Shown: piece after piece, positions 72 through 16,226 of the stretch
Layout: every line of letters starts with the position of its first letter
Position numbering within the stretch: the first letter of the stretch is position 1
IMG/VR virus record: IMGVR_UViG_3300049225_000154
Location: 1-21,059 of that record
Length of the DNA stretch: 21,059 nucleotides
DNA from: a virus
Direction: 5' to 3' (one strand)
Translations under genes and position numbers: made by a program
The notes under the pieces: generated by a model
Databases searched by the model: none
What the model was told of the DNA's origin: nothing
The model's input: only the letters and a program-made list of their open reading frames with translations

Positions 72-656
72 ATGGAACAATCAGAAAACATCAACGAGCT
101 AACTGCTGCGCTTGCTAAGGCACAGTCCGAGATTCGTAATCCAAGCAAAAACACGAAGAACACTTTCTTCAAGAATGAATACGCTGATCTAACGGCTGTT
201 CTAGGCTGTATCAGGCCCGTTGCTAGTGCTAACGGACTTTCATTCATCCAATCGGTAGAGGCTCGGGCAGGACATGTATGCGTGTCTAGTCAGGTTTCAC
301 ACAGTTCTGGTCAGTGGATCAAACAAACCGCAAGCGTAGAACTTCCTAAAGCATCTAAGAATCCGATCCAAGACTTGGGTTCTATGGCAACTTATCTGAA
401 GCGTTATCAGGCCCAAAGTATGTGGGCAGTCTGCGCTGACGAAGACACGGATGCACAAGATCTGACCCTTGGCATAGAAGACATCAGTGACGAAAAGGTC
501 GCACACCTTGACGCGATGCTAGATGCTACTCAATCAAGCAAGTCTGCATTCCTTAAAGTCTACGGTGTGGAAAATCTCAAGAGTCTAACTGAAGACCAGT
601 ATCAGAAAGCCAAGAAGCAGCTTCAGCAGAAGAAAGCTAAACAGGCTAAATCATGA
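72..656 (+). CDS. erf: ERF-family single-strand annealing protein
   Basis: This 194-residue protein belongs to the ERF superfamily of phage recombinases, which anneal complementary single strands during recombination-dependent replication or genome circularisation. The family pattern is visible: a YADL segment (37-40) followed by an NGLSF..Q segment (54-60), then GSMATYLKRYQ (103-113) and an acidic DEDTDAQD stretch (123-130). The C-terminus is lysine/glutamine rich (about 170-194). The start is fixed by AGGAGAAG at 61-68, just upstream of the ATG. It overlaps the exonuclease gene by 4 nt, the usual annealing protein plus exonuclease pair (compare lambda Bet and Exo). Confidence 0.9.
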   Translation: MEQSENINELTAALAKAQSEIRNPSKNTKNTFFKNEYADLTAVLGCIRPVASANGLSFIQSVEARAGHVCVSSQVSHSSGQWIKQTASVELPKASKNPIQDLGSMATYLKRYQAQSMWAVCADEDTDAQDLTLGIEDISDEKVAHLDAMLDATQSSKSAFLKVYGVENLKSLTEDQYQKAKKQLQQKKAKQAKS

Positions 657-1264
657 AGATCCACAACGTCGAACAGGGTTCCGAGGCGTGGTTTGCATTA
701 CGTCTTGGGGTTCCGTCTGCCAGTCGGTTCAAAGACCTTCTGACCCCCACGGGTAAGCCTAGCGCATCAAGTGAAAAGTATATGCATGAATTGCTTGCTG
801 AAAAGATGTCAGGAAAAAGGTTTGATAGCTTCGATACTTTTCACATGAAAAGGGGCCGTGAACTAGAACCTGAAGCTGCTAACGTCTTTAGCTTTCAGAC
901 AGATTTTGTCTGCCGAGAAGTGGGCTTTGTGACCAACGATGAAGAAACTGTTGGTTGCAGCCCTGATCGGTTAATGGCTGATTCTGGCTTAGAGATTAAG
1001 TGTCCAATGCATACAACGCATGTTAAGTATCTGATCGACTATCACAAGAACGGTGAAATGCCTTCAGAGTATTACGGTCAAGTCCAAGGGACGATGTGGC
1101 TGATGGATCTGGAAGATTACTGGTTCATGAGTTACCACCCAGATCTACCGAATTTAATTATGAACGTCAAAAGGGACGAAAAGTATATCGCTTCACTTTC
1201 AGCGGCGGTTGATAAATTGCTGGAAGACTTAGAAACCAATCTAACTCTTATAGGGAGAATATAA
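653..1264 (+). CDS. YqaJ-like (lambda-exonuclease family) recombination nuclease
   Basis: A 203-residue PD-(D/E)XK nuclease of the YqaJ/lambda-exonuclease family. It is expected to degrade one strand at duplex ends and load the ERF partner on the exposed strand. Visible motifs: GSEAWFALRLG near the N-terminus (9-19), the RGRELEPEA helix (67-75), the catalytic core GCSPDRL (Asp105) followed by LEIKCP (Glu114, Lys116), and YYGQVQGTMWL (140-150), which carries the conserved glutamines. Length is normal for the family. The ATG overlaps the erf stop (ATGA), indicating coupled translation. Confidence 0.93.
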   Translation: MKIHNVEQGSEAWFALRLGVPSASRFKDLLTPTGKPSASSEKYMHELLAEKMSGKRFDSFDTFHMKRGRELEPEAANVFSFQTDFVCREVGFVTNDEETVGCSPDRLMADSGLEIKCPMHTTHVKYLIDYHKNGEMPSEYYGQVQGTMWLMDLEDYWFMSYHPDLPNLIMNVKRDEKYIASLSAAVDKLLEDLETNLTLIGRI

Positions 1265-1691: not shown

Positions 1692-1752
1692 AAAAATATG
1701 GTTTGAGATTAAAGCCATTATAGAAGACCTTTGGGATGAACTAACGCGATGA
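1684..1752 (+). CDS. Possible 22-residue ORF linking the HTH and NinB genes
   Basis: The peptide is MIEKIWFEIKAIIEDLWDEL plus two residues. GGAG lies 6 nt before its ATG. It overlaps the HTH stop by 8 nt and ends in the ATGA that starts the NinB gene, so it fills the gap exactly. The pattern of alternating hydrophobic and charged residues fits an amphipathic helix. It could be a real micro-protein or a translated linker that carries ribosomes into NinB. No function can be assigned. Confidence 0.45.
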   Translation: MIEKIWFEIKAIIEDLWDELTR

Positions 1753-2186
1753 ATGGTCAATTCTGGTTGATTCAAAATCGCAGGGATATTGATAATGTTC
1801 TGAAGTTCTTTCGAAAGTCTTTAGAAGATTGGGACTATGAAAGACCTTGTGCTTGGAAGCTGGAAGCGTATTCAACTGCAAGGTCTTTGAATCAGAATGC
1901 TTTGTTTCACATGTGGTGCGGTGAGATGTCGAGTCACTTTTCTAAGAAAGTCCCGATCACGCCGGAACAGATGAAGCAGTTGATGAAGAATGAATTCTTG
2001 GGAACTGAAGACGTGGTAGTTGGAAGTACCACTATTCCAAATCAGTTAAGGTCAACTAAGTCTTTGGATAAGGGTGAAATGCACTTCTTCATGGAACAGG
2101 TTTTTCACTGGGGTCTGGATCATGGTGTTACACTTACCAATCCAAAGAACAGCGAGTTCCAACGTGCCCGAAACGCTCAGGGCTAA
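1749..2186 (+). CDS. ninB: NinB-like (YbcN-fold) recombination protein
   Basis: A 145-residue relative of lambda NinB/Orf, a recombination mediator that binds ssDNA and SSB and can stand in for RecFOR. The hallmark is ARSLNQNALFHMWCGEMS (about 44-61), which matches the RSLDQNRKLW segment of NinB. Later conserved parts are KNEFLG (80-85), VVGSTTIPNQLRSTKSLDK (90-108) and a C-terminal helix with FFMEQVFHWGLDHGV. Length matches the family. It starts in an ATGA overlap and is followed directly by a NinG-like gene, as in the lambda nin region. Confidence 0.85.
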   Translation: MNGQFWLIQNRRDIDNVLKFFRKSLEDWDYERPCAWKLEAYSTARSLNQNALFHMWCGEMSSHFSKKVPITPEQMKQLMKNEFLGTEDVVVGSTTIPNQLRSTKSLDKGEMHFFMEQVFHWGLDHGVTLTNPKNSEFQRARNAQG

Positions 2187-2574
2187 ATGCTTGAAGGCAT
2201 TTCAGCTATTAAGAAGGCTCGAAGAATCTGATGACAATGGATTTTGTGAGTGTGTGACGTGCGGCGAAGTCAGGCATTATAAAACCGTTCACGGTGGTCA
2301 TTTTTTGCCAAAGGGTAAGTCATCCTTCTATGCATTCGATTCTAATAACGTCTGGCCCCAATGTCCCGCTTGTAATATTTACGGGATGAAACACGGATCG
2401 GCGGCACAGGTTTATACTTTATTCATGATCAGAAACTTCGGAAAAGATCATGTTGATAACATGTTGGCAAACCAACGAACCCCGATTAAGCTATACGCTA
2501 AAGACTATCGAGATATGTTGGCAGATTTCAATGCCAGAATTAAGATCGAAAAGAAAAGGATTGGTGTGCTTTGA
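2164..2574 (+). CDS. ninG: NinG-like (Rap) HNH-type recombination nuclease
   Basis: A relative of lambda NinG/Rap, a branched-DNA nuclease of the HNH/His-Me finger group. From the chosen GTG it is 136 residues. Visible: RAKCLKAFQLLRRLEES (6-22), CVTC zinc pair (30-33), GGHFLPKGKSS (44-54), NNVWPQCPACN (61-71) with the second cysteine pair, and a C-terminal helical part. The frame stays open to an ATG at 2074, but that start would overlap NinB by 113 nt and encode unrelated residues. GTG at 2164 keeps the conserved RAKCLK segment. TTG at 2191, with AGGG 8 nt upstream, is the alternative. It lacks lambda NinG's long N-terminal extension. Confidence 0.8.
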   Translation: MPETLRAKCLKAFQLLRRLEESDDNGFCECVTCGEVRHYKTVHGGHFLPKGKSSFYAFDSNNVWPQCPACNIYGMKHGSAAQVYTLFMIRNFGKDHVDNMLANQRTPIKLYAKDYRDMLADFNARIKIEKKRIGVL

Positions 2575-6693: not shown

Positions 6694-6748
6694 AGTAAAC
6701 AAAAGTGTTGACTCTATGGTTGATGTGAGTAGAATAGAACCCATCAAC
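6694..6748 (+). promoter_or_regulatory. Sigma70-type promoter with AGTAAAC box and dyad operator
   Basis: The layout matches the promoter at 4264: AGTAAAC (6694-6700), -35 TTGACT (6708-6713), a 16-nt spacer, -10 TAGAAT (6730-6735). A perfect 7-bp inverted repeat GTTGATG (6719-6725) / CATCAAC (6742-6748) again spans 30 bp around the -10. It should drive the small-gene block 6763-8904, including both hammerhead ribozymes. The start of transcription is expected near 6742, inside the right dyad arm. Confidence 0.85.
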
Positions 6749-6981: not shown

Positions 6982-6994
6982 ACCTTCGGGTCTA
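6982..6994 (+). repeat. Left copy of the near-direct repeat carrying the cleavage site
   Basis: The sequence ACCTTCGGGTCTA recurs at 7328-7342 as ACCCTTCGGGGTCTA. The two copies differ by one extra C and one extra G, which are compensatory because they add one base pair to the UUCG-capped hairpin. Each copy contains the GUC cleavage triplet followed by UA. The distance between the cut points is 348 bp. Confidence 0.7.
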
Positions 6995-7037
6995 CCAGCT
7001 AGGGACTGGTACTGACGAGGCCATAAGGCCGAAACCC
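6988..7037 (+). ncRNA. Type III hammerhead ribozyme
   Basis: All hammerhead elements can be read. Stem III: GGGU (6988-6991) with ACCC (7034-7037). Cleavage triplet GUC, cut expected after C6992. Stem I: UACCAG (6993-6998) and CUGGUA (7006-7011), 6 bp with a 7-nt loop. Core CUGACGA (7012-7018). Stem II: GGCC (7019-7022), AUAA loop, GGCC (7027-7030). Core GAAA (7031-7034). Stem III is the open end, so this is type III. The stem and loop sizes (6 bp/7 nt and 4 bp/4 nt) equal those of the satellite tobacco ringspot virus hammerhead. It lies in the 74-nt gap before the ATG at 7053. An upstream ACC (6982-6984) can also pair with GGU over a UUCG loop and could compete with stem III. Confidence 0.92.
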
Positions 7038-7052
7038 AAATAGGAGAAGAAG

Positions 7053-7295
7053 ATGCCAATTTACGAAGATGAAATCACCGAAGCCGACATCATGAAAGCG
7101 GCAGGAAAGTACAGGAAATATATTTTAGATATCGTTTATTCAGAAGAAGAATACATGGTCTGGCTGAAAGACGGCCACCAGATTGCGAACTACAACAATA
7201 CGATCTGGGTAATGGGATCGACTCAAGACGAGTTGGAGACGTTCGCAAGCATCATAAAATCTATCGAAAAAATACCAAAGAAGTCGGTAGCGTAA
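7053..7295 (+). CDS. Hypothetical protein flanked by two hammerhead ribozymes
   Basis: An 80-residue, mostly acidic protein, MPIYEDEITEADIMKAAGKY at its start, with a central strand pair (YMVWLKDGHQIANYNNTIWVM) and a helical, lysine-rich end. No family is recognised. Its ribosome binding site AGGAGAAG lies between the first ribozyme and the ATG, and its stop codon directly abuts stem I of the second ribozyme. The gene and its translation signal are therefore wholly contained in the 348-nt RNA that double cleavage would release. This placement is its most informative feature. Confidence 0.75.
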   Translation: MPIYEDEITEADIMKAAGKYRKYILDIVYSEEEYMVWLKDGHQIANYNNTIWVMGSTQDELETFASIIKSIEKIPKKSVA

Positions 7296-7345
7296 TCCTA
7301 CTGATGAGACTGCTGGCAACAGTCGAAACCCTTCGGGGTCTAGGA
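7296..7345 (+). ncRNA. Type I hammerhead ribozyme
   Basis: Stem I: UCCUA (7296-7300) with UAGGA (7341-7345), 5 bp. Core CUGAUGA (7301-7307). Stem II: GACUG (7308-7312), a 7-nt loop, CAGUC (7320-7324). Core GAAA (7325-7328). Stem III: ACCC (7328-7331), UUCG loop, GGGU (7336-7339). Triplet GUC, cut expected after C7340. Stem I is the open end, giving type I, a class known from prokaryote and phage genomes. Stem I may extend past an internal loop through GGU (7286-7288) and GCC (7347-7349), which would supply the bulge such ribozymes use for loop contacts. It begins immediately after the stop codon at 7293-7295 and leaves a 22-nt leader with GGAGAAG for the ATG at 7363. Confidence 0.93.
7328..7342 (+). 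repeat. Right copy of the near-direct repeat carrying the cleavage site
   Basis: This is ACCCTTCGGGGTCTA, matching 6982-6994 apart from one added C and one added G. Here the hairpin is stem III of the type I ribozyme. In the left copy the same hairpin lies outside the type III fold and competes with it. Confidence 0.7.
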
Positions 7346-7362
7346 AGCCAACGGAGAAGAAG

Positions 7363-7506
7363 ATGGAACCCACGGTTGAAGAAATGCTACGTGCGCGAAT
7401 CACGTTGTCTAAGATCTTAGAGTCTTATGGCCCTGATGATGTAGATGATTTTCATCGTCAGGTAATACCCGACATTCAGAAGCTGTTAGACAAGCTGAGT
7501 CAATGA
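7363..7506 (+). CDS. Small acidic hypothetical protein
   Basis: A 47-residue protein, largely helical and acidic in the middle (YGPDDVDDFHRQVIPDIQKL). CGGAGAAGAAG lies directly before the ATG, within the leader that would remain after cleavage of the type I ribozyme. The stop overlaps the next start in ATGA form. No family is recognised. Confidence 0.65.
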   Translation: MEPTVEEMLRARITLSKILESYGPDDVDDFHRQVIPDIQKLLDKLSQ

Positions 7507-12434: not shown

Positions 12435-13909
12435 TGGCTTGGAATCCGTTCAAGAAGAAAGAAGTTCGCAAGCAGATAAAGCTGCAAAGATCATTCAAAG
12501 GGGCGCAGGGTGGTCGGCTATTCGCTGACTTTTTTAGTTCTTCAGCCAGTGCTGATCAGGAATTAAAACAAGCCCTTGTTACGTTAAGAAATAGAAGCAG
12601 GGAGTTGTCCCGAAACGATGCCTACGTCGCTAGATATCTTAATCTTCTCAATTCTAACGTGGTCGGTCATAACGGCATCAGGGTTAATGCTAAGGCGCGA
12701 GACGCAGACGGTAGTCTTGATGCAGTAGCCAACACAACTATCGAACAGGCGTGGCGTAAGTGGGCCAAGAAGGGCAACTGTACCGTTGATGGTCAGATGT
12801 CTTTGATCGACTGTCAAAGGTTGTTCATCGAAGCGTTAGCCCGTGACGGTGAGGTTATCATTCGTCAGGTGACAGATCCGGTCAGTGACTTTGGATATAA
12901 GATCGAGTTCTTAGAAGCCGATCATCTAAACGAAACCAAGAATGAAATCTACACCAACGGAAATCGGGTGGTGATGGGTGTCGAGATTGATCAGAACCGA
13001 AAGCCGGTTGCTTATCATCTTTACAAGAATCATCCGAATGACTTGGGTTTGAACCAGAACAACGAAACGATCCGTGTACCGGCAGAAGAAATAATTCATG
13101 CTTTCGTCCGTCAGCGTCCAGAACAGACTCGGGGTTATCCGTTTGTTTCTGCCGTGATGGGCAATATCAAAATGCTGAACGGCTACTACGAAGCTGAAAT
13201 CACTGCTGCTAGGGTATCAAGCGCGAAGATGGGATTCTTCACAAGCCCAGCGGGTGACGGTTATGTTGGCGAAGACATGCAAGACGAATACACTCCGATC
13301 ATGTCAGCAGAGCCAGCGACATTCGAGCAGCTACCCGCAGGGATGGATTTCAAAGCCTTTGACCCAGCACATCCAACGACAGCCTTCGAAAGTTTTTCAA
13401 CGGCTATTTTGAGAAGCATCGCGTCAGGTCTGAACATCAGCTATCACAGCTTATCTAACGACTTGTCCAGCGTGAACTATTCTTCTCTAAGGGCTGGCAG
13501 CTTAGAAGATCGTGATCAGTACAGGGTGCTTCAGAAGTTCATGATTGAACACTTCATCGAGCCGGTATTTAGGAGCTGGTTGAAGAACGCGATGACTAGA
13601 AGCATCAATCTTCCAATTCAGAAATACGACAAGTTTGCTGATGGCGTGACGTATATCCCAAGGTCTTGGGGCTGGGTTGATCCGCAGAAAGAAATGATGG
13701 CGAACATTGCAGGGCTTCAGAACGGTATCGTGACGTATCAGGATATCGAATCTAATTATGGCCGTGATGTTGAAGAACTATTTGAACAGCATGAACGCGA
13801 AGACAAACTTGCTTCGCAGTATGGCGTGAAGACAGCGTTCCAGCCATTCGGAATGAAGATGCCGGTAGACGCAGACATTCAAGGAAGCGACGATGCCAAC
13901 CCCGACTAA
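12434..13909 (+). CDS. Portal protein, lambda gpB family
   Basis: A 491-residue portal subunit that forms the dodecameric DNA channel at one capsid vertex. Matches to lambda-type portals: RNRSRELSRNDAYVARYLNL followed by VVGHNGIR near the N-terminus, IDCQRLFIEALARDGEVIIR, KIEFLEADHLN, EEIIHAFVRQRPEQTRGYPF, then SSVNYSSLRAGSLEDRDQYR and WGWVDPQKEMMA near the C-terminus. Length is close to the usual 500-530. The gene overlaps gpW-like by 1 nt and the protease/capsid gene by 17 nt. Confidence 0.95.
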   Translation: MAWNPFKKKEVRKQIKLQRSFKGAQGGRLFADFFSSSASADQELKQALVTLRNRSRELSRNDAYVARYLNLLNSNVVGHNGIRVNAKARDADGSLDAVANTTIEQAWRKWAKKGNCTVDGQMSLIDCQRLFIEALARDGEVIIRQVTDPVSDFGYKIEFLEADHLNETKNEIYTNGNRVVMGVEIDQNRKPVAYHLYKNHPNDLGLNQNNETIRVPAEEIIHAFVRQRPEQTRGYPFVSAVMGNIKMLNGYYEAEITAARVSSAKMGFFTSPAGDGYVGEDMQDEYTPIMSAEPATFEQLPAGMDFKAFDPAHPTTAFESFSTAILRSIASGLNISYHSLSNDLSSVNYSSLRAGSLEDRDQYRVLQKFMIEHFIEPVFRSWLKNAMTRSINLPIQKYDKFADGVTYIPRSWGWVDPQKEMMANIAGLQNGIVTYQDIESNYGRDVEELFEQHEREDKLASQYGVKTAFQPFGMKMPVDADIQGSDDANPD

Positions 13910-16226
13910 AGGGATGAAAGAAGATGCCCAGCGCGGTCTTGATTGGCGGCGTGAGTTTGGCCGTGGCGGCACTGAAGTCGGTATTGCTCGCGCTAGGGAT
14001 ATCGTCAACGGAAAGAACCTGTCTGATTCGACAGTAAAAAGGATGTATTCATTCTTTTCACGGCATGAAGTAGACAAGAAAGGCAAAGGTTTCAATCAAG
14101 GCGAAGAAGGATATCCGTCAAACGGCAGGATAGCTTGGGCGCTTTGGGGTGGTGATGCTGGTTTTAGCTGGTCAAAAAGACTGGTTGAACAAATGAAAGA
14201 TGATGATAGATCATCGGATTTAGTTGACAATAGTGATATTATTGACGTCACTGACGAGGTGAAAGATATGGAAAGACATGTAGTTAATGTTGAAGAAACA
14301 GAAGACTCATTCATCATCGAATTAGCCAAGGCTGATACAGGTGAAGAAGTCGAAATCGTGGACGAGGTTCAAGCAGACGATGCAGAGTATGAAGCTATGG
14401 CTGAAGATATTGAAAGAGCCGATCCTTCACAAATCGTCTACAGGACTATAGACCTTTCACGCGGTGCTATAGATGAAGAAAAAAGAATTGTTCGAATTGG
14501 CGTTTCTAGCGAAAGTCCAGTCGAACGTGATTTTGGCTTAGAGGTTTTAAGCCATAAAAAAGAAGATATAGACATGGAGTTTATGTCTTCGGGTCGTGCG
14601 CCCTTACTGAACAACCATAAAATGGATGAACAGATAGGTGTGGTGCGATCATTTTACCTTGACGAGACACAGCGGCGTACCGTTGCGTTGGTTGAATTTG
14701 GCAATTCAGCCTTGGCTCAAGAGGTTTTCGCAGACGTGAAGTCCGGTATAAAGCAGAATATTTCTGTCGGGTATAGCGTCAAAAAGCTGGTTCGTGCCAA
14801 AGACGACGAAGGAAAGGAATATTACAGGGCAAGCTGGACACCGATGGAAGCATCGATTGTTTCGATCCCTGCTGATAGTTCGAAATTCGTTGGAGTTGGT
14901 CGATCCGCAGAAAAAACTCTAAACACTAATAAGGTGGAAACTATGACTGAAGAAAATCAAGTCGATGTGCGCCAAGTCAGTGAATCAGCCAAGGCAGAAG
15001 CATTAGCATCTGTTGGTGAAATCATTGCATTGGGTAAGCACCACAACCAGCGCGATTTAGCTGAAAAAGCTATCGAACGCGGTGTAACCGTTGAACAATT
15101 CCGTGGCGAGCTTCTTGAAGCCGTTCGAAATGATCAGCCTTTAGAAACCCCTGCTGCTGTCGTTGACGTAGCGAAAAGTGAACAGCGTGAGTATAGCTTG
15201 ATCCGAGCTATCAAAGCTGCTTCATCTGGTGACTGGCGTGAAGCTGGCTATGAGCGTGAAATCTCAGACGAGATTGCAATCCGTTCTGGCAAAGAAGCCC
15301 GAGGCTTCTATCTTCCTGCTAACATCAACTGGGGCCAACGTGATCAAACTGCTGGCACTAACTCTGCCGGTGGGTTCTTGGTTGGTACTGACCATTTAGC
15401 AGATCAGTTCATCGAAGCATTGTATGCTCGATTGACTATCACTTCTTTGGGTGCCCGTGTAATGCAGGGTCTGAAGGGTGATGTTGCTATTCCTAAGCTG
15501 TCTGCTTCTGTGACCAACTCAGCATTCGTTGCTGAAGGTTCAGCACCCAGCGAAGGCGCAGCTACGTTTGCACAAGTAACTATGTCACCTAAGACTCTGG
15601 CAGCATACGTTGACGTTTCACGTCGATTGATGCAGCAGTCAGATCCTAGTGTAGAACAGGTTCTTCGTAACGACATCATCAATACTTTCGCACGAAAGAT
15701 CGACGACGTAGCTATCGAAGGCGGCGCTTCAAATGCACCATCAGGCATCATTGCAAACAGCGACACCAATGTCGTGGCAATGGGCACTAACGGTGCAGCG
15801 ATCACTTACGCTAAAGTAGTTGAACTGATGAAGGCTGTCGAAGAAGACAATGCCATGATCAACAACTCTGCTTTCTTGACCAACCCTAAAGTCATCGCGG
15901 CTTTACGGACTGTCAGCAAGCAAGCGTCTGGTGTTGAAGGCAACTTCATCATGGACCCCAACGGCACGATCTTAGGAACTGAAGTAGCTTCAAGCACTTT
16001 GGTACCTTCTGATCTGTCTAAAGGAACCGGATCTAACTTGTCTGCAATGCTTTACGGCGACTTCAGTCAAGTTATGCTTGGCTTCTGGTCTGGCGTAGAT
16101 GTTGTAGTCGATCAAAGCAGCTTGTCTACTTCTGGCGGCACGCGATTAGCGTTCTTCCAAGACTTAGATGTTGCTCTTAGATACCCCGAATCTTTCGCGG
16201 TAATCAAAGACATCGTTGCAAGCTAA
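13893..16226 (+). CDS. Fused S78-type prohead protease and HK97-fold major capsid protein
   Basis: A 777-residue polyprotein with three parts. Residues 1-100 are a small conserved phage domain (GLDWRREFGRGGTEVGIARA, GYPSNGRIAWALWGGDAGFS). Residues about 170-340 are an HK97 U35/S78-like prohead protease with His242 (LLNNHKMDEQIG), Ser291 (QNISVGYSV) and EASIVSIPAD (319-328). Residues 351-777 are the capsid protein: scaffold-like helices (351-430), then ADQFIEALYARLTITSLGAR, FVAEGSAPSEGAATFAQVTM, and a C-terminal GVDVVVDQSSLSTSG...LRYPESFAVI. Autocleavage should free the capsid subunit. In-frame starts with good ribosome binding sites lie at Met126 and Met351. Pairing with a lambda-type terminase and portal is a mosaic. 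Confidence 0.93.
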   Translation: MPTPTKGMKEDAQRGLDWRREFGRGGTEVGIARARDIVNGKNLSDSTVKRMYSFFSRHEVDKKGKGFNQGEEGYPSNGRIAWALWGGDAGFSWSKRLVEQMKDDDRSSDLVDNSDIIDVTDEVKDMERHVVNVEETEDSFIIELAKADTGEEVEIVDEVQADDAEYEAMAEDIERADPSQIVYRTIDLSRGAIDEEKRIVRIGVSSESPVERDFGLEVLSHKKEDIDMEFMSSGRAPLLNNHKMDEQIGVVRSFYLDETQRRTVALVEFGNSALAQEVFADVKSGIKQNISVGYSVKKLVRAKDDEGKEYYRASWTPMEASIVSIPADSSKFVGVGRSAEKTLNTNKVETMTEENQVDVRQVSESAKAEALASVGEIIALGKHHNQRDLAEKAIERGVTVEQFRGELLEAVRNDQPLETPAAVVDVAKSEQREYSLIRAIKAASSGDWREAGYEREISDEIAIRSGKEARGFYLPANINWGQRDQTAGTNSAGGFLVGTDHLADQFIEALYARLTITSLGARVMQGLKGDVAIPKLSASVTNSAFVAEGSAPSEGAATFAQVTMSPKTLAAYVDVSRRLMQQSDPSVEQVLRNDIINTFARKIDDVAIEGGASNAPSGIIANSDTNVVAMGTNGAAITYAKVVELMKAVEEDNAMINNSAFLTNPKVIAALRTVSKQASGVEGNFIMDPNGTILGTEVASSTLVPSDLSKGTGSNLSAMLYGDFSQVMLGFWSGVDVVVDQSSLSTSGGTRLAFFQDLDVALRYPESFAVIKDIVAS
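14256..14270 (+). promoter_or_regulatory. Internal ribosome binding site and ATG before the protease domain
   Basis: GAGGTG (14256-14261) stands 6 nt before an in-frame ATG at 14268 (Met126), exactly between the N-terminal domain and the protease part of the fusion gene. A separate product of 652 residues, lacking the first domain, could be made from it. Confidence 0.5.
14931..14945 (+). promoter_or_regulatory. Internal ribosome binding site and ATG before the capsid domain
   Basis: AAGGTGG (14931-14937) stands 5 nt before an in-frame ATG at 14943 (Met351), at the border between the protease and capsid parts. This would give a free 427-residue capsid precursor in excess over the fusion, as a phage shell needs. 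Confidence 0.6.

Follow-up and report, generated by a model that had tools for sequence, protein, structure and literature searches.

Known phage hammerheads and the present locus

The closest described systems are the clustered phage hammerheads of Perreault et al. 2011 (PMC3088659), in which multiple ribozymes flank single prophage genes and processing into single-gene mRNAs was proposed. Ribozymes of these clusters cleave both in vitro and in E. coli (PMC3088659). In the haloviruses HF1 and HF2, the HHphage hammerhead lies 13 nt upstream of the start of a phage gene, and a mapped mRNA 5′ end falls no more than 3 nt from the cleavage site (Perreault et al. 2011, PMC3088659). Hammerhead self-cleavage at unit borders is also a property of retrozymes and viroid-like circular RNAs (PMC7761336).

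The window analysed here, meaning the whole stretch of DNA, is a 21,059-bp virus contig (IMG/VR record IMGVR_UViG_3300049225_000154) in which a type III and a type I hammerhead are predicted on either side of a small gene, p80. As in the prophage clusters, where types I to III are mixed, several same-strand hammerheads surround one gene or a short block of genes that varies from locus to locus; the window has two coding-strand hammerheads flanking a gene, and ArdA is a neighbour in both data sets. The differences are an uncultured marine phage clade, the pairing of type III with type I around p80, a set of alleles that carry the two ribozymes, a single one, none, a scar or an empty site, and placement statistics over 181 ribozymes among the matches listed. 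The initial annotation regarded the locus as a candidate for an undescribed system, but hammerheads flanking single prophage genes were already reported by Perreault et al. 2011 (PMC3088659); arrangement and proposed role have been known since then, and this is a further case. The present analysis adds the allelic series, a placement rule with its numbers, the tie of the ribozymes to promoter plus cargo, and the observation that current Rfam thresholds miss these copies.

The likeness to HF1/HF2 is limited to a hammerhead shortly 5′ of a phage gene start, since there a lone ribozyme with a variant core is found in an archaeal halovirus. Retrozymes share self-cleavage at the borders, but the window shows no feature of reverse transcription or replication, its ribozymes are not identical repeats around a unit, the junction is unconserved, and the insert is protein-coding and lies in an operon; a retrozyme has one ribozyme copied at both borders and restored by ligation, whereas the two types here differ. 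The cargo block resembles the morons of tailed phages in bringing extra genes and their own promoter between genes that are adjacent in relatives (23 nt apart in L184), and we call it moron-like because promoter and ribozymes are present or absent together with the cargo. It differs in comprising several genes and in ending with a ribozyme, whereas morons end with a terminator. No terminator was seen on reading the cargo interval, where a ribozyme or hairpin takes that place, and the GC content is not deviant (0.442 vs 0.456), so we do not file the block as a moron.

Genomic context

The window encodes an ERF protein, a YqaJ-type nuclease, a NinG homologue, a helicase, a primase fragment, a terminase and a fused protease-capsid protein, a gene set that identifies it as a tailed phage (Table 1). 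Positions 13893-16226 are one 777-aa ORF with prohead protease (S78, just under the cut-off) and capsid domains. The terminase has its closest isolates among marine Roseobacter phages, at 57% identity. These nearest isolates, of the CRP-8xx and CRP-406 group, are without hammerheads, and a search of 50,697 phage records for cultured relatives with hammerheads gave no DNA-level match.

Table 1. Features of the window, in order of position.
Feature	Position	Strand	Evidence and remarks
ERF annealing protein	72-656		Left of contig
YqaJ-type nuclease	653-1264		Left of contig
NinB-like	1749-2186		Left of contig; under Pfam cut-off
NinG homologue	2074-2574		Left of contig
Primase fragment, DnaG-type zinc-ribbon, 125 aa	6289..6666	+	Pfam PF01807, E 2e-11; synteny; upstream of cargo; fixed left anchor in relatives
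Sigma-70-like promoter, TTGACT-16-TAGAAT	6708..6735	+	Left end of cargo block
Cargo gene p71, 71 aa	6763..6978	+	No assigned function; 48% identity to a Roseobacter phage CRP-902 protein
Type III hammerhead	6988..7037	+	Predicted cut between 6992 and 6993; stem III 6988-6991/7034-7037, stem I 6993-6998/7006-7011, stem II 7019-7022/7027-7030, core CUGACGA; RF00008, descriptor, shuffles, near-identical copies in ~40 other contigs
Shine-Dalgarno region of p80, AGGAGAAG	7042..7049	+	A few nt past the type III ribozyme; spacing same in relatives
Cargo gene p80, 80 aa	7053..7295	+	Predicted small alpha-beta-beta-beta-alpha protein, medium confidence
Type I hammerhead	7296..7345	+	Starts right after p80 stop codon; predicted cut between 7340 and 7341; stem I 7296-7300/7341-7345, stem II 7308-7312/7320-7324, stem III 7328-7331/7336-7339, core CUGAUGA; descriptor, compensatory changes
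Loop II of type I ribozyme, UGGC	7314..7317	+	Possible pseudoknot partner of 7347-7350 (GCCA)
p47	7363..7506	+	Fixed right anchor of variable interval; preceded by type I in the window

Two hammerheads of different type flank p80

Both elements satisfy the CUGANGA and GAAA core, the three stems and the NUH cleavage site. A descriptor scan of both strands found exactly two hammerheads in the window, and the motif did not occur in 1000 dinucleotide shuffles of it. Although about 3 chance occurrences of the short core word alone are expected in the window, the three stems make the difference. At the level of sequence, two intact predicted hammerheads of different type around p80 are therefore confirmed, as the initial annotation had it, with the right coordinates. 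It was also correct that the predicted released piece, 6993-7340, is 348 nt long and that both the 80-aa ORF and its Shine-Dalgarno sequence lie within it. p80 belongs to no known family and has no significant structural (fold) match.

In Rfam, the type III element matches RF00008 with 37.9 bits (E 4.4e-5), below the curated threshold of 48.5, which as a gathering score is a database cut-off rather than a structural criterion. The sole match of the type I element is a weak one to RAGATH-1 (E 4.2), and the side matches in the window (snoRNA, CRISPR repeat) are at chance level (E >1). The near-direct repeats pointed out at the two cuts are indeed similar segments (CCUUCGGGUCUA and CCCUUCGGGGUCUA), but they consist of stem III segments plus UUCG, as expected with similar stem III, and so are not independent evidence of mobility.

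Placement in related phages

Two pattern scans of IMG/VR gave about 50 type III and at least 119 type I loci, and after removal of duplicates there were 181 distinct hammerheads among the matches listed (140 type I, 41 type III). Within this set the genes on either side of the ribozyme run in the same direction, and a start with a ribosome-binding site follows some 22 nt on. The ribozyme begins a median of 2 nt (type I) or 12 nt (type III) after the upstream stop, and the median gap from its end to a Shine-Dalgarno-preceded start codon is 21-24 nt, again among the matches listed. Such a start follows at 10-40 nt in 40/41 type III hammerheads, compared with 2.4 at random positions, and in 96 of the 140 type I hammerheads listed, compared with 9.4. 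The same placement was found for 44 of 52 hammerheads that are invisible to the fetching patterns.

Two or more hammerheads occur at 32 loci among the matches listed, none of which uses both strands. Neighbouring pairs enclose exactly one ORF in 32/50 cases, so two hammerheads around one ORF are ordinary in these phages. The flanked genes are not constant, with 87 and 27 downstream gene families among the matches listed; neighbours are mostly small uncharacterised proteins, with ArdA, ArdC, DUF932, Sak4 and helicases among them.

Covariation and folding

Some inner type I pairs are fixed by the search pattern itself and are uninformative. At stem II position 2, which the pattern leaves free, 87/89 type I ribozymes among the matches listed are paired, vs 38 when shuffled. 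An alignment of the window's type I subclass (20 ribozymes, 19 distinct) has 58 double-changed cells where 18.7 are expected, and a covariation score of 0.375 vs 0.133, neither reached in 500 shuffles (0/500 each); the signal falls sharply once the pairing partners are offset by a column. Compensatory double changes are also present in the p80-linked type I orthologues of L156, L109 and L074. This strong covariation suggests that the type I structure is under selection. The type III copies are too alike for covariation to inform in most pairs. A general pseudoknot between loop II and the 3′ flank was considered and rejected, as it has no significance in the main classes; the hint is confined to the window's subclass, where UGGC:GCCA alternates with UGGU:ACCA and 51% of cells are paired over 19 sequences.

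Folding with native flanks (ViennaRNA) gives type I stem I a probability of only ~3e-4 because the 3′ end of p80 competes with it. The p80 3′ end at 7280-7302 (GGUAGCGUAAUCCUACU) can pair with type I stem I and core. It is possible that translation through to the p80 stop codon might control type I cleavage. At type III cuts, a stem-loop tends to sit just 5′ of the cut, often over the stop codon, with a p-value that is optimistic because the sequences are related; the window's own stem-loop is weak (−2.2 kcal/mol).

Alleles of the primase-p47 interval

The contigs compared are fragments and partly redundant, with mechanical gene calls. In the window, the interval from the end of the primase (6666) to the start of p47 (7363) holds the promoter, p71, type III, p80 and type I. 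In L151 (a contig that also appears as L002 and L185) the promoter is followed by a different gene, the scar CTTCGGGTCTACACAGG, p80 and type I, while L136 and L121 have the promoter, two other genes separated by this scar, and type I, without p80. The exact scar is found in only three IMG/VR contigs; alleles with the scar seem to have lost the type III core by natural deletion, a direction of change that we infer. L156 has the promoter, another gene, the hairpin GGGGCTTCGGCCCC, p80 and type I, and L109 has the right part of this order. In L034 the promoter and two genes are followed by type III directly 5′ of p47, and L040 has the promoter, one gene and then type III 5′ of p47. Finally, some alleles have neither promoter nor ribozyme: in L184 p47 starts 23 nt after the primase, in L188 and L189 the distance is 84 nt, and in L182 and L183 a 213-nt interval holds a small ORF. 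A hammerhead and a promoter are present in all 7 cargo alleles and both are missing from the 5 empty or short ones; the promoter is similar and in the same place in 7/7 of the cargo alleles checked vs 0/5 of the others.

Of the p80 relatives, L074 shares both ribozymes with the window, type I only accompanies p80 in L151, L156 and L109, and neither is present in L028, L045, L061, L050 and L042; no ribozyme adjoins the p80 homologues of 69% identity. In L074 the order is type III, p80, type I, but the type III element is weakened, with a 3-bp stem III and the cleavage triplet GUU. A pairing of type III and type I about 350 nt apart does exist elsewhere, with cuts 346 nt apart in L074. Type III also adjoins other genes on either their 5′ or 3′ side, including the window's flanking genes, and p71 has type III before it (L003), after it and then an unrelated gene (L007), or not at all. 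Given these varied combinations, the predicted type III and type I ribozymes around p80 form a genuine pair, found with the same gene in one other case, without being a fixed unit.

In a second lineage (L021, L028, L033 and L044), the promoter, a conserved first gene (family 0) and type III are followed by a different gene each time, and gene content switches exactly past the ribozyme. The hairpins GGGGCUUCGGCCCC and GGCGGC-AUAA-GCCGCC sit at gene borders where relatives carry hammerheads (intergenic regions of L156, L109 and L034).

Proposed role and alternative explanations

We propose, with a probability of about 0.7, that the two hammerheads act as intercistronic self-cleaving boundaries by which a cargo operon would be cut into single-gene linear messages with structured ends. 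A transcript starting near 6740, or reading through from the helicase-primase genes, would be cut at the two predicted sites into three messages, namely p71, a linear 348-nt p80 mRNA that begins with the type III body and finishes with the type I body, and the operon from p47 onward with a short new 5′ leader. Type I would leave its ribozyme body as the structured 3′ end of the upstream message, while at type III cuts this end would often come from a preceding stem-loop, and the messages 3′ of each cut would carry 5′-OH ends. E. coli seems not to phosphorylate hammerhead-made 5′-OH ends (PMC4191395, there citing unpublished data). The 5′-OH and structured ends would be expected to slow decay, leaving the p80 message protected at both ends, and the cut would uncouple cargo expression from the core operon.

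Read directly from the sequence are the intact predicted ribozymes, the stop and start spacing, the type I covariation, the same placement in many phages and the co-occurrence with promoter and cargo; cleavage in the cell, stabilisation and uncoupling are what we infer from the arrangement. Against processing, a terminating ribosome on p80 would cover type I stem I, in addition to the competing fold. Several p80 relatives have a weakened type III or none, so cutting 5′ of p80 is not essential.

The initial annotation had raised a different fate for the 348-nt piece, which would be released, closed into a circular mRNA and reopened by a rebuilt type III hammerhead. The hammerhead-cut ends would be substrates of RtcB-type ligases, which counts in favour of a circle, and joining 7340 to 6993 does rebuild the type III stem on paper, with GGGGUC joined to UACCAG pairing 4/4 with GAAACCC. 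This junction is not conserved, however, as it is full in only 2/6 III-to-I pairs and fails in L074 (with the same gene), L117, L132 and L177. It is also disfavoured in folding of the 348-nt circle, where the rebuilt stem reaches 0.02 vs 0.42 for the local type I UUCG hairpin and forcing it costs 1.5 kcal/mol. A search of 30 related records, many of which are fragments, gave no RtcB, although the host could supply it. In addition, p80 occurs without one or both ribozymes, and Perreault et al. sought circles and detected none (PMC3088659). With the junction test, the circular folding and the RtcB search all against it, a circular messenger seems very unlikely, and circularisation is neither needed nor supported. 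Even less credible is an autonomous, retrozyme-like mobile cassette made of the 348 bp of ribozyme, ORF and ribozyme. The patchy presence of p80 in the primase-p47 interval would suit a cassette, but the block that varies runs from the promoter to p47, its gene content varies with p80 present or absent, and no primase-p47 allele lacks or carries exactly 348 bp. Each ribozyme moves independently of p80 and is found in relatives alone and with unrelated genes, the situation that the initial annotation had named as refuting its proposal, and the genes examined include no recognisable transposase or reverse transcriptase.

It is conceivable, if doubtful, that the hammerheads are above all DNA joints, offering near-identical border sequences for cargo exchange by homologous or annealing recombination, with ribozyme activity secondary or being what renders the joints harmless to expression. 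Nearly one and the same type III sequence recurs in about 40 contigs, with 27 gene families represented downstream of it and 19 upstream; L185 and L003 have a common upstream gene and split at CTTCGGGTCTAC. Among the phage's own genes are those for an ERF annealing protein, a YqaJ-type nuclease and a NinG homologue, and NinB gives a match below threshold. Where the upstream gene is 70-95% identical, the next gene differs in 42/49 comparisons with a hammerhead in both junctions vs 313/589 without, though these comparisons are confounded by region and not independent. On the other hand, type I keeps its structure despite changed sequence, which selection for DNA homology would not give, and the ribosome-binding sequence is also common to borders without ribozymes. 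We only tentatively suggest, and think it rather unlikely, that the same 50-bp hammerhead is both a DNA boundary for accessory-gene swaps and RNA scissors freeing any joined gene as an end-protected message; if so, cargo could be exchanged without disturbing the core operon. That the ribozymes are inactive relics carried by recombination appears improbable. The weakened type III of L074, the scar CTTCGGGTCTACACAGG that is all L151 and L121/L136 keep, and the competing fold at the window's type I all fit such relics, but the cores in the window are intact and type I covaries strongly across phages.

The role of phage hammerheads has been a question since 2011, and the natural alleles of this clade would let it be tested through comparison of messages and protein levels: some keep the two ribozymes or a single one, others have a scar or a simple hairpin in place of a ribozyme, type III stands where others have type I 5′ of p47, and empty sites have neither promoter nor ribozyme.

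Hammerheads in other phages

Rfam gathering scores miss every hammerhead in the 8 multi-ribozyme or related loci checked. The analysis also indicates that such ribozymes are common in uncultured phages but fall under the Rfam reporting score, so that standard annotation misses them. The clade's type III pattern had three matches in bacterial genomes, of which the descriptor accepts only L191 (a Chloroflexi MAG); its stems are short and the match is chance-like.

Some contigs carry 4-5 same-strand type I hammerheads within 1-4 kb (L066, 7540-10028; L068, 6300-7742; L077, 4290-5325; L099, 5387-6908; and L148). Adjacent ribozymes in these contigs often differ in stem I, and L077 alternates GCACUA and GCACAU. 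L140 and L166 (near 448 and 5966) carry type III hammerheads with a stem III of 8-9 bp and a stem I of 9 bp, in another phage group that is apparently unrelated to the window's clade.
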